Below, one piece after another: positions 5,772 to 50,552 of a stretch of DNA of 64,000 nt (the stretch's first letter is position 1; each line of letters begins with the position of its first letter). Where the stretch lies: positions 62,001-126,000 of the forward strand of contig SVNO01000001.1 of assembly GCA_015066845.1 (NCBI GenBank), given 5' to 3'. This DNA comes from Ruminococcus sp. (lineage in GTDB: Bacteria; Bacillota; Clostridia; Oscillospirales; Ruminococcaceae). Both the position numbers and the translations under genes were made by a program. Under the pieces are notes generated by a model. The model made no database searches and was not told where the DNA came from. It was given only the letters and a program-made list of their open reading frames with translations.

Positions 5772-5801
5772 GTACAAAAAGCACGGAAAGGATGAATGGT
5801 C

Positions 5802-6824
5802 ATGCAACTGTTTACCATGGCTGCGGCATTGCTCGCAGGCGCAATTCTCCCCACTGGCACACATCTTCTCTACCACCACTATTCTGCCTACGATACACGG
5901 GATAGTCAGCTGTTCTGTTATCACGCATCCACGCAGGAGCAAGTGGAGCTTCAGGATGCCTCCTTTGTTCACGCAATGAACGGCGATTTTGGAAGTCACT
6001 GTTATGATATTACATTCATGGCGATCGACCCTTTGGCAGATGAGTGGGATATTTTCCGCTACAACACCATCAGCCGGAAGCTCGAAAACCTCACGGAGCG
6101 CAGCGGATTCCGGAACGAGGACCCGAAATTCTCCCCCGATGGCAATTCACTTGTATTCAAGCGCGGCTACTGGAGCCACGAGGCGAATGATTTTGTCTAT
6201 GACCTTGCCCTGATGGATCTGCGCACAAAGGACATTACCATGCTCACAAACGGTGGCGGTGAGGAGTCCATGCCCTGTTTCTCGCCCGATGGCAGGACGG
6301 TATATTATGCGCAGTCCGGAAATGGAGAAACGGCGATATGCAGTCTTTCTCTTGACACACTCGAAACACAATGCCTTTACACGGAATCCGGCGTTCATGC
6401 CTATTATCCGATGGCAGCCGAAAGCGGTCTGTATTTCTCCAAATGGCACTCCCCCACTCTGCGCAATGACTGCATTGTCCGGCTGACGGACGCTGTACCG
6501 GAGCTTTTGCCGTTCAACGATACGGCGTACAACTGCTCAGATGTATTCCCCTGTCCGGACGGCGGAATGCTGTTCAGCTCCTCCAGGGACGGCAGCTATG
6601 ACATGTATTACTTTGACGGTACGCAGGAATTCCCACTGACTTCCTGCAATTCCCAATTGCAGGAGCTTGGTGCGTCGTGCTTTACGGCGCAGGATACGCA
6701 GATCATTGTCAGGGAAACGCTTGATTTTCTCCTCTGCCGCGGGCAATCCGGCAAAAACATGGATGCCAATGGGGATGGCGTTGTCGATGGCTTCGACCTT
6801 GCCATGCTCAAACGAATGAAATAA
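5802..6824 (+). CDS. Secreted TolB-like beta-propeller protein ending in a single dockerin-type Ca-binding repeat
   Basis: TolB-type motifs (RNEDPKFSPDGNSLVFKRG, SMPCFSPDGRTVYYAQSGN); C-terminus MDANGDGVVDGFDLAMLKRMK resembles one dockerin half-repeat. Confidence 0.75.
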   Translation: MQLFTMAAALLAGAILPTGTHLLYHHYSAYDTRDSQLFCYHASTQEQVELQDASFVHAMNGDFGSHCYDITFMAIDPLADEWDIFRYNTISRKLENLTERSGFRNEDPKFSPDGNSLVFKRGYWSHEANDFVYDLALMDLRTKDITMLTNGGGEESMPCFSPDGRTVYYAQSGNGETAICSLSLDTLETQCLYTESGVHAYYPMAAESGLYFSKWHSPTLRNDCIVRLTDAVPELLPFNDTAYNCSDVFPCPDGGMLFSSSRDGSYDMYYFDGTQEFPLTSCNSQLQELGASCFTAQDTQIIVRETLDFLLCRGQSGKNMDANGDGVVDGFDLAMLKRMK

Positions 6825-7015: not shown

Positions 7016-8509
7016 ATGAAAATCAAAACAAACAACGACAGCAACCAAAAATTAGTACAGCTCCGACAATCCATGATTTTAGCATTTATCGCGCTAATAG
7101 GCTTTGTTATCGTTTTCTTCTCGGTGCTTGTAATGAACAAGACGGATGATGTACTTAAAAACAAGGTCAGCAATATGGCATCCGCACTGACAGTGCAGAT
7201 GAAAATGAACATCAATAGCTACCTTTCCAAGATGGAAACCACCTGCGCATTGGTTTTCGTTGCCGAGGAAGTTTACCAGTATGACGCAACCAATGCGGAT
7301 CTGGACGCTTACGAGGCATTATCTACGGAGAAAATCATTTCCGACAAGCTCTTTGACTTGTGCATCATGGAAAACTATGTCGATTTCGGCATTGTCTACC
7401 GCAATAATCATGTGGTCGGCAAGGTATCCAACGGTACAATTGAGCTGTTCGGTGAGCACCTGTTCACGGATTTGGAATCCATGATCAACCGCAGCCGTAC
7501 CCATGACGGCTGGGCAACCGGCTACAATGGAGATTTCAAGCGCATTTATTATGTCAAGCGGATTCACGAAAATGCTGTGCTTGTGACATCGTTCTATACC
7601 ACGGAGCTGGAGGAAGTCTTTGAGCATCCGGGCGGTATGGGTGATATGACCATCCGGCTGCTGGAAAAAAACGACATTGTAATCTATTCGTCCAAGGACG
7701 GCGAAACAGGCACGAAGCTTGACGAGGACATTGCAAGCCGAATCAGCGCACAGACCTCGGCAACCTCCATGGACAACCACTACATGATTAACGTCAACAG
7801 CTGCGGTGACGACTGGCGTGTAATCTGTTCAATTCCGACGCAGATCATTCTCAAGGAGAAAAAGGAGATCCAGCTGTTCATTGCCATTGTTGGACTGCTC
7901 ACGGCATTGAGTGCGGTCATCATCAGCGTGTGGATTTCCAACCGCATTTCTACACCCGTGCACGACATGGTCAACGTCCTCGATGAAAAGGCACATATCG
8001 ACCAGCTCACCGGCGTTCTGAACAAGCGGTCATTTGAGGAATCGGCGGACAAGGCGTTCCACCTCGACAATTCTCCGGAGCGTTACGCGCTGATTCTTAT
8101 TGATGTGGACAATTTCAAAGGTGTCAACGATACACTCGGTCATGCTTACGGCGACAAAGTGCTTGCCGGTGTGGGCAATATTCTCCAGACGGTATTCCGC
8201 GCCGATGATTTTCTCGGCAGACTCGGCGGCGATGAATTCTGTGTACTGCTCTATCTGCCGAAATCTGCCACGGAGCAGGAAATTACAGAATATACCAGTG
8301 AAAAATGCCGTCAGCTTTGCCAGTCGTTCCGCAACAATTACACGGGCGATGATGGAAAGTACAAAATTTCCGCAAGCGTCGGTGTTGCACTCTTTCCGCA
8401 TCATGGGCAGACCTTTACGGAATTGTACCAATGTGCAGACAAGGCATTGTATCAGTCCAAGCGCAAGGGTAAGGATACCTTTACCATTTTTACGGAGGAA
8501 TACAAATGA
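7016..8509 (+). CDS. Membrane diguanylate cyclase with extracellular Cache-like sensor domain
   Basis: N-terminal TM, ~240 aa extracellular region, second TM, HAMP-like linker, GGDEF domain with LGRLGGDEFCVLL. Confidence 0.93.
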   Translation: MKIKTNNDSNQKLVQLRQSMILAFIALIGFVIVFFSVLVMNKTDDVLKNKVSNMASALTVQMKMNINSYLSKMETTCALVFVAEEVYQYDATNADLDAYEALSTEKIISDKLFDLCIMENYVDFGIVYRNNHVVGKVSNGTIELFGEHLFTDLESMINRSRTHDGWATGYNGDFKRIYYVKRIHENAVLVTSFYTTELEEVFEHPGGMGDMTIRLLEKNDIVIYSSKDGETGTKLDEDIASRISAQTSATSMDNHYMINVNSCGDDWRVICSIPTQIILKEKKEIQLFIAIVGLLTALSAVIISVWISNRISTPVHDMVNVLDEKAHIDQLTGVLNKRSFEESADKAFHLDNSPERYALILIDVDNFKGVNDTLGHAYGDKVLAGVGNILQTVFRADDFLGRLGGDEFCVLLYLPKSATEQEITEYTSEKCRQLCQSFRNNYTGDDGKYKISASVGVALFPHHGQTFTELYQCADKALYQSKRKGKDTFTIFTEEYK

Positions 8510-9774
8510 ATCGCAGATTTCTTTTGATTGCAGCGTGTACCGCGCTCCTGTTGACTTCAGGTTGTTCGGAACGAACAGTCATTACCTCCCACGAGGAGCA
8601 GATCGAAATTTCCTTGTCGTGGTGGGGCAACGACCAGCGCAACGAATACACCATCGAAGCGGTCAAACTCTTTGAAAAGCACCATCCCAATATCAAGGTC
8701 AAATGCAATTATTCCGAGTGGTCGGGCTATCAGGCGCGCAGTGACGTGCAAATGGTTTCTGGCACGGAAGCGGATGTCATGCAGATCAACTATGCATGGA
8801 TCGAGCAGTATTCCCCCGATGGTACGGGGTTTTACGACATTCAGCAGCTTTCTGAACATGTGGACTTGTCCAATTTCACAAGGGAAGAGCTGGATTATGG
8901 AATGCAGAACGACAGCCTCAATGCCATCCCCATTGCACTGAATACGCAGAGCGTCTACATCAACAAAACCATCTATGATTCTTATGGGCTGGAAGTTCCC
9001 AAAACATGGGAGGATTATTTTGCCGCCGCGGAAGTCATGCGCGGAAAAGTCTATCCGCTTGCAATGACTTCCAAATCCTCGTGGTTCTTCATTACCGCCT
9101 ATGCCGAGCAGGTCAGCGGCAAGCAGTTCATGACGATGGAAGGCAATTTGAATTTCACAGCGGAAGAACTGCGCATTATGCTTGAATTCTACTGCCGGCT
9201 TGTGAATGAAAAGGTCATGCCGCAGGTGGAATATTTTGAACGACTCGCGCCGGAGGATGGTATTTATGCCGGTATTGTGGCATGGCTGAGCGATGGTTCA
9301 AGCTACTGCGACCGTGCGGTGAACAATGGCTATGAGTATATTGTGACGGATTATCCTGTCGATTCCTCCTCGCAGGTTGGTGATGGCTGGTATGCAAAGC
9401 CTGCAACCATGTACGCCATCAGCCGGAATACCGACCATCCGGAGGAAGCGGCAATGCTGCTCAATTACCTGCTCAATTCCTCGGAGATGGCAAATTTACA
9501 GCGCATTGAAAAGGGCATTCCACTGAGTGAAGCAGCGCAGAATTACCTGAATGAACATGAGCTGCTTGATGGGATGCAGTATGTGGCGTTTGAAAAAATG
9601 AATGAATATCGGGATAATCTCTCTGTCATCAGTCCCTATTTCGAGAATGAAGCACTCATTGCAGCATTCCGTGACGCGTCGAATGCTGTGCTCTACGGAA
9701 AGGCTGACGCGCAGACACAGGCAGAAATTCTCTACGAAACCTTTGATGATATTTTACGCGATGCCAAGGCATAG
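8506..9774 (+). CDS. Extracellular solute-binding lipoprotein, family 1
   Basis: Lipobox LLLTSGCSE; SBP1 pattern ISLSWWGNDQRNEYTIEAVKLFEKHHPNIKVKCNY. Start overlaps the GGDEF stop (ATGA). Confidence 0.92.
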   Translation: MNRRFLLIAACTALLLTSGCSERTVITSHEEQIEISLSWWGNDQRNEYTIEAVKLFEKHHPNIKVKCNYSEWSGYQARSDVQMVSGTEADVMQINYAWIEQYSPDGTGFYDIQQLSEHVDLSNFTREELDYGMQNDSLNAIPIALNTQSVYINKTIYDSYGLEVPKTWEDYFAAAEVMRGKVYPLAMTSKSSWFFITAYAEQVSGKQFMTMEGNLNFTAEELRIMLEFYCRLVNEKVMPQVEYFERLAPEDGIYAGIVAWLSDGSSYCDRAVNNGYEYIVTDYPVDSSSQVGDGWYAKPATMYAISRNTDHPEEAAMLLNYLLNSSEMANLQRIEKGIPLSEAAQNYLNEHELLDGMQYVAFEKMNEYRDNLSVISPYFENEALIAAFRDASNAVLYGKADAQTQAEILYETFDDILRDAKA

Positions 9775-9819: not shown

Positions 9820-9954
9820 TTAGTTGCTCTTGTTCTGAGAGCTGGAGTTGTTCTTATTCTGAGAATTCTGATTGCTCTTATTCTGAGAATTGGAACTGTT
9901 CTGAGAATTCTGGTTGTTCTTGTTCTGAGAATTCTGATTGTTCTGATTGCTCAT
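9820..9954 (-). CDS. 44-aa Asn/Gln/Ser/Lys-only microprotein
   Basis: ATG to TAA: MSNQNNQNSQNKNNQNSQNSSNSQNKSNQNSQNKNNSSSQNKSN. GGAG-type RBS ~10 nt upstream and a minus-strand terminator immediately downstream. Below the ORF-track length cutoff. Confidence 0.7.
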   Translation of the reverse strand: MSNQNNQNSQNKNNQNSQNSSNSQNKSNQNSQNKNNSSSQNKSN

Positions 9955-10097
9955 GCTTATCGCTCCTATCTCCGCACGATCCGGCATATCTTGCAGGAAT
10001 GTGCGGAATTCCGGACTGATATACCGTTAGCACAGTGGTCTTGTGCCTTCTTGGGTAGTATGTCCGGTATCGGAGCGATTATGCATTCAAATGCGCA

Positions 10098-10496
10098 TCA
10101 ACTCGTTTTTGTTGTTGTCTGCCTGCGCTGCACGGTTTCTTCGTCAATTCTCATCTGCTGTTCCACCTCGGCGAGCACCTCGTCGGGGTTTGTTGTTTCC
10201 GTGGTTTCTTCCGTTTCTGTGGTCATTGCAGGCACGGTTGTACCGGGATTAAGCGGTACAGTATTGCCGCGCAGATTCCAGATGGAAACACCGCAGAGAA
10301 CGCAGAGTGCAAGTGATGCGGCAATATATGCCGTATAGCGTCCGATGGTGCGGCGCGGCATTTGTGCGACCTCGAAAACCTCCTCGATCTCCTCATGACA
10401 GTCTTTCTGATACAATTCCTGTTTCATTCGCTCTACAAGCTCATCGGGAGCGTGTACGCTGTCGAATGCTTTTTTTATCTCGTCATGCATATTCAT
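10098..10496 (-). CDS. Putative membrane anti-sigma factor
   Basis: Short cytoplasmic N-terminus, single TM (YTAYIAASLALCVLCGVSIW), Thr-rich exterior; overlaps the ECF sigma gene by 4 nt. Confidence 0.7.
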   Translation of the reverse strand: MNMHDEIKKAFDSVHAPDELVERMKQELYQKDCHEEIEEVFEVAQMPRRTIGRYTAYIAASLALCVLCGVSIWNLRGNTVPLNPGTTVPAMTTETEETTETTNPDEVLAEVEQQMRIDEETVQRRQTTTKTS

Positions 10497-11068
10497 TCTT
10501 TACTACCTCCCAATTTCTTTTGCAGCTTCTTTCTTCCGCGTGACAATTGCTGTGCAACTGCGGCTTCGCTTTGTGATGTAATACGCGCAATTTCCCGAAT
10601 CTGGTAGTTTTCATAATAATGCAGGTAAATGGCGATCCGGTATTTCTCCGGCAGTGAAAGGACGGCTTCAAGGACTGCGGACGTTTTTTCCTTCATGTGT
10701 ACTGGTATCTGCGATAAATCCACATCCACCCTCCTGCGCCGCCATGTGCTTCGCACAAGGTTCTTGGATTCATTGAGCGTAACGCGTAAAAACCACGCTT
10801 TCTCATGCGTTTCCGATTCAAATTCAGGATGTGTCTTGAAGTATTTGAAAAAAACCTCCTGCATGACGTCCTCTGCATCCGCATAATTCCCGACAACTGC
10901 CAGCGATGCACGGTACACCATGTCCTTGTATCGGTCAATGGCTGCAAAGGTAACACCTGATACACTGATTCCCTGCTGCCTGCCGATTTCGACAGTCCTG
11001 CCGCGTTCTTCCGTCATTGTCAGCATTTGTTCATCCCACCTTTCCAAGTGCTTCTGCCTTATATACAC
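10493..11068 (-). CDS. RNA polymerase ECF-type sigma factor
   Basis: Sigma-70 region 2 (YADAEDVMQEVFFKYFKTHPEFESETHEKAWFLRVTLNESKNLVRS) and region 4. Exact start uncertain. Confidence 0.9.
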   Translation of the reverse strand: MYIRQKHLERWDEQMLTMTEERGRTVEIGRQQGISVSGVTFAAIDRYKDMVYRASLAVVGNYADAEDVMQEVFFKYFKTHPEFESETHEKAWFLRVTLNESKNLVRSTWRRRRVDVDLSQIPVHMKEKTSAVLEAVLSLPEKYRIAIYLHYYENYQIREIARITSQSEAAVAQQLSRGRKKLQKKLGGSKE

Positions 11069-18766: not shown

Positions 18767-18876
18767 ACACATTCAGCGGGATGCGAGATCTGTACCGCAA
18801 GGCATTGCCTTTTCGTCCGACCGGCAACTCCCCGTCCGATCAGCACTTAACGCACAGACTTCTACTCTGTATGATC
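18767..18876 (-). promoter_or_regulatory. Tetrahydrofolate (THF-I) riboswitch upstream of folT
   Basis: Minus strand ACAGAGTAGAAGTCTGTGCGTTAAGTGCTGATCGGACGGGGAGTTGCCGGTCGGACGAAAAGGCAATGCC...CGCATCCCGCTG. Matches remembered conserved blocks GAGUAG, GCGUUAAGUG, GACGAAAAG and GCAUCC; P2/P3/P4 stems pair by hand. Confidence 0.85.
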
Positions 18877-49163: not shown

Positions 49164-49192
49164 AATCGCCCCGATTACGGGGCGATTTTTTA
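49164..49192. terminator. Right copy of duplicated terminator palindrome
   Basis: Identical 24-mer followed by TTTTT; plus-strand U-tract retained. Confidence 0.85.
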
Positions 49193-50326
49193 ATGCGGTC
49201 TTGCTTTTTTTACTTCGTAGAGCATTTTGTCAGCTTTTGCAATGAAATCCGGAATCGTTTTCATCTCTGCGGTATAAGCCGCGTAACCGATACTCAGATG
49301 CAGATCGTACTGCGCTCCGGCAGCTGCATTGTCCTCTGCAAGTACTTCGTTAATCTCCAGACACAACGTCCGGATTGTTTCTTCGCTTTCGACTTCGCAG
49401 ATAATGATGAACTCATCACCGCCATAGCGGCATACAAAGCAGTGATACCGTGAGCAGACCTTTTTAAGGGCTGTTGCCACGCGGATGAGTGCCTTGTCGC
49501 CTTCAACGTGTCCGTACACGTCATTGATTTTCTTGAAGTAATCCATGTCCATCATCAGCAGAAAGAGCTGCTTGCAGCTTGAGGGATTTTTCATCTTGCC
49601 GGACAAATACCGCAGCAGTTGGTTGCGGTTGTTCAGCTGCGTCAACGGGTCAATGGAAATCTTCTCATTCTGTAAATTGATGTAAACCTGTAGAAGTGCG
49701 AGCGTGATGCCCATACTCAGTACAGGAGAGCCGCCAAAGTTCATCTGCCAGATACCGCAGAACAGCGGGAAAACGCAGAACGAGGATATGGTCAGGTATT
49801 TGTTGCGGTTCGCATAATCATGCTTGTTCTGTGCGCGCAGGAACGCTTTACCGGATGTGGAAATAATGTAGCCAAACAGAATAACGGATTGCAGGATGTA
49901 CAATGGCCCATAGTGGAATTGTTTATCCGCGTCCACATAGAACATCAGCCCCGTCCATGGCGTCGTCAGCGTCAGGATATTGAACAGCGTGACTGGAATG
50001 ATAGCAAGAAGCTTGTATTTTCTGGATGTCGCAAACTTCGATTCCTGCATATACTCAGAATAAAGGAACCAGAGATAGGAAACGAATCCGGAAAGAATGT
50101 AGTACAGGATGTCTACCGCATATTTCACCGCAGGCACAACAGCTGGAATACTTTCGCAGATCACCCATAATGTATCCGAAACGCATAATGCCATCACACT
50201 GTACATCAATGCATTCAGTATTCGTTGAGAATTCTGATGATCTCTTGCGTTCTTCCCGCGCGTGAGCAGCGTCAAAATGATGCAGATGCAGAATATGTCC
50301 ATCTCAAGATAATAGATATGATTCAT
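49190..50326 (-). CDS. Membrane diguanylate cyclase (multi-TM N-terminus + GGDEF)
   Basis: Multi-TM sensor; ISIDPLTQLNNRNQLLRYLSGK; CRYGGDEFIIICEV. Confidence 0.93.
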   Translation of the reverse strand: MNHIYYLEMDIFCICIILTLLTRGKNARDHQNSQRILNALMYSVMALCVSDTLWVICESIPAVVPAVKYAVDILYYILSGFVSYLWFLYSEYMQESKFATSRKYKLLAIIPVTLFNILTLTTPWTGLMFYVDADKQFHYGPLYILQSVILFGYIISTSGKAFLRAQNKHDYANRNKYLTISSFCVFPLFCGIWQMNFGGSPVLSMGITLALLQVYINLQNEKISIDPLTQLNNRNQLLRYLSGKMKNPSSCKQLFLLMMDMDYFKKINDVYGHVEGDKALIRVATALKKVCSRYHCFVCRYGGDEFIIICEVESEETIRTLCLEINEVLAEDNAAAGAQYDLHLSIGYAAYTAEMKTIPDFIAKADKMLYEVKKARPH

Positions 50327-50552
50327 AAGTATGCCTTCTTCCGATAGCATCGCGGCACAGCCGGTACTATTCCGGTGATGCGCCGTTGTTTATGTTTGGT
50401 TCACACTTTTATTATAGCACAAAGTTTTGTAAATGTCTATTGTTTTCAAGCAAAAAAACCGACAACATTTTTCATTTCACAAAAAAGAAACAAATTATTC
50501 AAAGTATTGAAAAAGATGCCCAGCCGCCGCAGGGCGTTCCGGGCATCAATTC

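Follow-up and report, generated by a model that had tools for sequence, protein, structure and literature searches.

A transporter-type solute-binding lipoprotein as a likely co-receptor of a dCache-like diguanylate cyclase in ruminococci

Why would a ruminococcus encode a solute-binding protein (SBP) directly behind a membrane-bound diguanylate cyclase, and what could such a protein do away from a transporter? The question is raised by two genes in a 64,000-nucleotide stretch of Ruminococcus sp. DNA, hereafter the window. The upstream gene (7016–8509, forward strand; ATG at 7016, TGA at 8507–8509) encodes a 497-residue protein with the order sensor, transmembrane (TM) segment and GGDEF domain, which we call class A. 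The downstream gene (8506–9774, forward strand; ATG at 8506) encodes a 422-residue solute-binding lipoprotein of the TogB/YesO type, an orphan with respect to transporters, which matches SBP_bac_1 with E = 2.9e-22 and carries the lipobox LTSGC (residues 16–20, 8551–8565), whose Cys20 is invariant in relatives. Direct reading of the sequence places the Shine-Dalgarno motif of the SBP gene, GGAGGA, within the cyclase gene (8494–8499) and also confirms that, as the first-pass annotation had it, the SBP start overlaps the cyclase stop in a four-nucleotide ATGA (8506–8509). From this overlap we infer that the two genes are translationally coupled; in most relatives too the sensor and SBP genes overlap or nearly abut.

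Reading along the cyclase, all of it on the forward strand, we place a first TM helix at about residues 20–41 (7073–7138), inside a continuous helix spanning residues 7–82 of the AlphaFold2 (AF2) model, then a dCache-like extracellular sensor domain at about residues 42–278 (7139–7849), and a second TM helix at about residues 287–308 (7874–7939), where the model has a helix from 275 to 327. Both TM assignments come from reading the sequence, as do an RxxD inhibitory-site (I-site) motif, RADD, at residues 395–398 (8198–8209), which is without a conserved counterpart in most relatives, and an intact GGDEF active-site motif at residues 404–408 (8225–8239). The GGDEF domain matches the Pfam profile PF00990 with E = 4.2e-42, and the Pfam search found no EAL domain in the protein. 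Given the intact motif, the protein is predicted to be a diguanylate cyclase that synthesizes c-di-GMP.

The nature of the sensor domain is less immediate. Pfam gives no significant Cache match, dCache_1 (PF02743) included, in the window protein itself; among its sensor relatives dCache_1 is the commonest match, in 9 of 24, with weak scores (best E = 0.0074). Between TM1 and TM2 the AF2 model (pLDDT 84) has a long helix that carries two PAS/Cache-like modules, and the GGDEF domain follows. Among the matches listed by Foldseek for the full receptor most are to the GGDEF half and give no independent confirmation of a Cache fold, and comparison of the ectodomain with PDB sequences returned no useful match. 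Since the Pfam matches are weak and confined to relatives, while the model has the two modules, we take the domain to be probably, rather than provenly, of the Cache type.

The surroundings of the pair have features of their own. The product of the gene 5′ of it (5796–6824, forward strand) is a beta-propeller of TolB/PD40-like type that carries half of a dockerin-like module at its C-terminus (DANGDGVVDGFDLAMLKRMK; Dockerin_1 E = 1.6e-4, just below the cut-off); it may be exposed at the surface or associated with a cellulosome. Downstream of the SBP gene an open reading frame of some 44 codons on the reverse strand (about 9820–9955), consisting almost wholly of S, N, Q and K and beginning MSNQNNQNSQNKNNQNSQN, separates it from an ECF-type sigma factor and a small membrane protein resembling an anti-sigma factor (10098–11068, reverse strand). 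Farther away on the reverse strand lie a tetrahydrofolate (THF) riboswitch aptamer (18772–18871; Rfam RF01831, 89.9 bits) and a second GGDEF protein (49190–50350), which has 386 residues, a multi-TM N-terminus and an intact GGDEF motif.

Is the pairing of the two genes more than an accident of this genome? The first-pass annotation had let its proposal stand or fall with the conservation of the pair, and on comparison the pair does prove to be conserved. SBP homologues more than 50% identical occur in most of 37 genomes of the genus, and elsewhere in the order we see generic SBPs only. In the flanks that we retrieved, a sensor homologue lies directly 5′ of every SBP homologue except at a locus cut by a contig end (L036) and at L055. 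When GTDB genomes, mostly Ruminococcus-type MAGs, were chosen by the SBP alone, the sensor was directly upstream at 77 of 78 testable loci (73 with a GGDEF domain, 4 without), two further loci cut at their 5′ end standing outside the 78; about 65 of the 77 junctions overlap, with start codons picked by a simple rule. Among 398 genomes of the family, all 54 that bear the sensor also have an SBP of the receptor-linked clade described below; these linkage and co-occurrence counts are not phylogenetically independent. One more genome, G737 (L250), has a near SBP, and there the contig end falls inside the cyclase gene; the nine genomes of the genus that have no sensor also have no SBP of this family. 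The arrangement extends to distant sensor homologues (E from 1e-28 to 1e-65), which still have an SBP homologue directly downstream, and the pairwise distances of sensors and SBPs are correlated (r = 0.73, a value reached in 0 of 2000 permutations). The flanking genes, on the other hand, vary: no neighbour is common to more than 6 of 35 loci, leaving out of the count the pair itself and shadow frames of its two genes. Since the flanks change while the pair stays, the pair travels as a unit. Sensor and SBP thus form a real conserved two-gene cassette, beyond chance.

The cassette comes in more than one form. Eleven genomes carry a paralogous cassette, class B, with the same sensor and SBP and no GGDEF domain: the sensor protein stops about 15–35 residues past TM2, and the SBP gene starts at or near the stop of the sensor gene. 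Class B sensors form one clade (support 100/100), and so do class B SBPs, with the lone SBP of genome G013 falling inside. The ratio dN/dS is 0.09–0.19 for the sensors and 0.09–0.13 for the SBPs, values by which the genes are under purifying selection and hence functional. An assembly or frameshift artefact, which we considered, is ruled out by the eleven genomes, the single clade and the low dN/dS. Ten of the eleven also carry a GGDEF-bearing class A sensor and the eleventh genome is 77% complete, suggesting that class B depends on a GGDEF-bearing copy.

There are also genomes where the partners have parted. In the flanks examined, no SBP accompanies the class A gene of G007, G018 or G021, and the only close SBP of each genome is that of the B cassette; in G013, and probably in G794, sensor-GGDEF and SBP are both kept and unlinked. 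In about five genomes, then, counting G794, the cyclase has lost its adjoining SBP while an SBP persists elsewhere, and the sensor tree indicates that this loss probably happened at least twice. One apparent new pairing, an SBP gene behind a soluble GGDEF-EAL gene (L101), was rejected as such: a class A sensor is encoded at another place in that genome, its short flank showing no SBP, and the locus is probably one half of a split pair.

How essential is the cyclase to the cassette? The GGDEF motif is intact in the window copy and in 67 of 73 scanned class A proteins, and it is degenerate (GENSF, GENEF, KKDEF, SGDRI) in a divergent clade of pairs and in a few class A copies, including those of the cultured Ruminococcus flavefaciens strains YL228 and MA2007, which by our search have the degenerate copy only. 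The rule that copies with dead output always coexist with a live one, which we entertained, is therefore broken by these two strains, though it holds for class B in ten of the eleven genomes. Since some linked cassettes have a degenerate GGDEF motif, c-di-GMP output is not universal for the cassette, and since relatives keep SBP and sensor with a degenerate GGDEF domain or none, there must be more to the cassette than the gating of a cyclase. One may go further and suppose that SBP and sensor make up a general receptor module with protein-protein contact as its output, the GGDEF domain being dispensable or vestigial and c-di-GMP synthesis not primary. The constraint on the class B genes and the degenerate motifs would fit such a module. 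However, the predominance of intact motifs, in the window as in class A at large, and the presence of a GGDEF-bearing copy beside class B in nearly every genome that has it speak against it, and we consider it rather unlikely. A role for class B that keeps the cyclase in the picture is that it acts in trans on class A, both supplying SBP and forming mixed sensor dimers that would be unable to assemble a GGDEF dimer, thereby tuning c-di-GMP output to plant-wall sugar. This we regard as possible, if on balance doubtful. If true, a diguanylate cyclase would have in class B a natural "silent subunit" dedicated to it, within a receptor network with interchangeable parts.

Could the SBP nevertheless belong to a transporter? 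The source genome (2.21 Mb in 106 contigs, 93% complete) has eleven matches to the permease profile BPD_transp_1, all of them on contigs other than the 131-kb contig that holds the window; nor did a homology search find permease homologues in the window, so that the lack of an ABC permease nearby, noted in the first reading of this DNA, extends to the whole contig. Across 133 receptor loci (mean length 11 kb) we find a single permease homologue, 8.2 kb away. The window SBP is without a cognate permease at its locus and so lacks what would mark it as part of an importer. In the rest of the genome, SBP genes adjoin the multi-permease systems on contigs C101, C52, C62 and C91; C104 has one amino-acid-type permease only, and the 3.2-kb contig C21 has a permease pair cut by the contig end, its SBP not visible. 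On C62, one CUT1-type permease pair is accompanied by seven tandem SBP-like lipoproteins of about 755–795 residues (L081:10707–20000 and L082:2–6943), an unusual expansion of large SBPs. As for the c-di-GMP network, the genome encodes about ten GGDEF and five EAL domains and gives no PilZ match; a search for c-di-GMP-I riboswitches was uninformative, its control being silent.

The ancestry of the SBP tells where it came from. By full-length sequence and fold similarity it is of the TogB/YesO type: the nearest solved structures by profile are those of TogB (2uvg–2uvj; E = 2e-78 to 2uvh), and the top natural Foldseek matches of its model (pLDDT 92) are 2uvh, 4ry1 and YesO, with TM scores of about 0.71–0.88. 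Taken together, these searches lead to TogB, which binds oligogalacturonide, Pectobacterium ECA2210, and YesO, which binds rhamnogalacturonan. A tree of 67 SBPs unites the receptor-linked proteins in one clade (100/100), whose sister group consists mostly of permease-linked SBPs accompanied by a PF07470 (GH88-family) gene. A further SBP group sits in operons that include genes for KduI, a KduD-like SDR, a PfkB kinase, a KDPG-type aldolase, GH28 and GH88-family enzymes, a gene content that together indicates use of pectin and unsaturated uronates. Distant SBP relatives also occur at two loci that have no permease and where the adjoining gene encodes another kind of membrane protein, its GGDEF motif degenerate (L233:1528–4073, EKDEF; L238:5072–7770, NRDVF); these may represent a second recruitment, or an early branch, of the SBP-GGDEF pair.

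What might the receptor SBPs bind? In YesO, W20, R25, W52 and K284 contact the unsaturated uronate (PMC7596534), and motif spacing places W40, R45, W72 and K298 of the window SBP as their equivalents; likewise S262 and Y267 are equivalent to the TogB ligand-contact residues S271 and Y276 (PMC8839585). Most of these positions are conserved across receptor SBPs. Two basic residues of TogB are not: R143 and K275, invariant in 15 of 15 transporter SBPs, are replaced by E/Q and N/S in 35 of 35 class A and B receptor SBPs. Our best guess from these residues is therefore a plant-wall oligosaccharide with a uronate end, and because R143 and K275 have been lost it is possible that the specificity of the receptor SBPs has changed relative to their transporter relatives. 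For the sugar-type ligand suggested earlier this means partial backing: pectic oligosaccharides as ligands of the nearest homologues and the retained uronate contacts favour it, whereas the lost basic residues do not.

With this ancestry in hand we can return to the transporter. It might be argued that an ABC importer encoded elsewhere is still supplied by the SBP, the operon merely co-regulating uptake with c-di-GMP signalling. TogB, which also works in pectin-oligosaccharide chemotaxis (PMC9314435), and MBP are dual-function SBPs of just this kind, and the truncated permease pair on C21 could in principle want a partner. Yet each remaining multi-permease system of the genome is adjoined by an SBP of its own, the receptor-linked clade is separate from the permease-linked one, the receptor loci are practically devoid of permeases, and the SBP tracks the sensor in every genome of the family that has one; an importer role is thus unlikely. 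Least likely of all, and in our view very unlikely, is that the operon is shared for expression only, the SBP being an unrelated lipoprotein such as a scavenger or adhesin and the sensor binding its own ligand in the dCache-like pocket, since the pair stays joined through duplication, relocation and GGDEF loss, and genomes where the genes are split keep both members. In favour of that reading, the ectodomain has a cluster of invariant polar and aromatic residues resembling a ligand site. The sensor domain does have strongly conserved residues of its own (R176, Y178, K181, D164, W166) and could itself bind a ligand, which also tells against the co-receptor reading given below.

We therefore propose, as the likely reading and one with strong comparative support, that the SBP is a transporter-type protein recruited as a dedicated extracellular co-receptor of the dCache-like diguanylate cyclase. 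Being an orphan of its transporter and nearly always inherited with the sensor, it is probably the "antenna" of the latter. The observed basis is an operon-like two-gene cassette, a lipoprotein signal, family-wide co-inheritance, a single SBP clade split from the SBPs of transporters and an intact GGDEF motif in the window protein; docking and gating are how we would connect them. On this proposal an SBP of the TogB/YesO kind would have parted from its ABC transporter and settled permanently into an operon of two genes, its partner there being a two-TM dCache-like sensor. Loaded with its ligand, putatively an oligosaccharide of the plant wall that probably ends in a uronate, it would dock on the sensor domain, and the signal would cross TM2 to the GGDEF dimer and raise or lower c-di-GMP synthesis. 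In relatives the SBP-sensor unit has gained a second copy stripped of its GGDEF domain, class B, which probably serves to share SBP and receptor complexes, or to tune them, in trans with the copy that bears the cyclase.

How does such a co-receptor compare with known systems? Closest in principle is NspS-MbaA of Vibrio cholerae and Sinorhizobium meliloti, where an SBP is encoded with, and controls, a membrane c-di-GMP enzyme and has no transport role, as we propose here; in ScrB-ScrC of V. parahaemolyticus, likewise Gram-negative, an SBP, again without a part in transport, is encoded with and controls a membrane GGDEF-EAL enzyme. The defining arrangement of the NspS-MbaA type, an SBP gene conserved beside that of a membrane c-di-GMP enzyme, is present in ruminococci. 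The window protein does not, however, have its GGDEF-EAL architecture: NspS-MbaA combines a Gram-negative GGDEF-EAL protein with a polyamine-binding NspS, whereas here we have GGDEF only and a Gram-positive lipoprotein. Compared with both systems, the ruminococcal pair differs in its TogB/YesO-type SBP_bac_1 protein and its GGDEF-less paralogous cassettes. Clostridial SBPs are also known as co-receptors of membrane sensors, in CuaD-CuaS-CuaR of Ruminiclostridium cellulolyticum, a cellulolytic relative among the clostridia, where the lipoprotein Family 1 SBP CuaD binds the ectodomain of the sensor CuaS (PMC10384115), and in XylFII-LytS of Clostridium, but there the output is a histidine kinase and response regulator rather than GGDEF. 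Nor does an SBP need a receptor with an output domain in order to act, as GlnH and GlnX show (PMC9769921). In the actinobacterial GlnH-GlnX-PknG system, as in class B, a lipoprotein SBP is paired with a TM receptor lacking its own output; GlnX, though, consists of four-helix bundles in tandem and has its kinase as a separate protein, whereas class B is a truncated paralogue of a cyclase sensor. The solved relatives TogB (Yersinia/Dickeya) and YesO (Bacillus), nearest by sequence and fold, serve ABC importers, in contrast to the receptor SBPs with their altered R143 and K275 positions. Distant sensor matches outside the family include kinases of the YesM type followed by a type-1 binding protein that has no SBP_bac_1 match; we take them as analogous.

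The general principle of SBP-stimulated c-di-GMP enzymes is already known (PMC9602780). We found no description of a ruminococcal SBP-cyclase pair in the open-access literature, in itself weak evidence, and as far as our searches show, the novelty lies in the ruminococcal setting, in the pectin-type SBP and in paralogues that lack an output. The known examples of such enzymes are few and Gram-negative, and little is known of the sensory inputs to c-di-GMP in gut and rumen Firmicutes. The cassette illustrates how a transporter SBP may become a signalling part, and its GGDEF-less or degenerate paralogues, together with the cyclases without a neighbouring SBP, amount to a natural experiment on the coupling of SBP, sensor and output. 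The pair would provide a concrete, testable link between the breakdown products of plant walls and c-di-GMP in fibre-degrading ruminococci.
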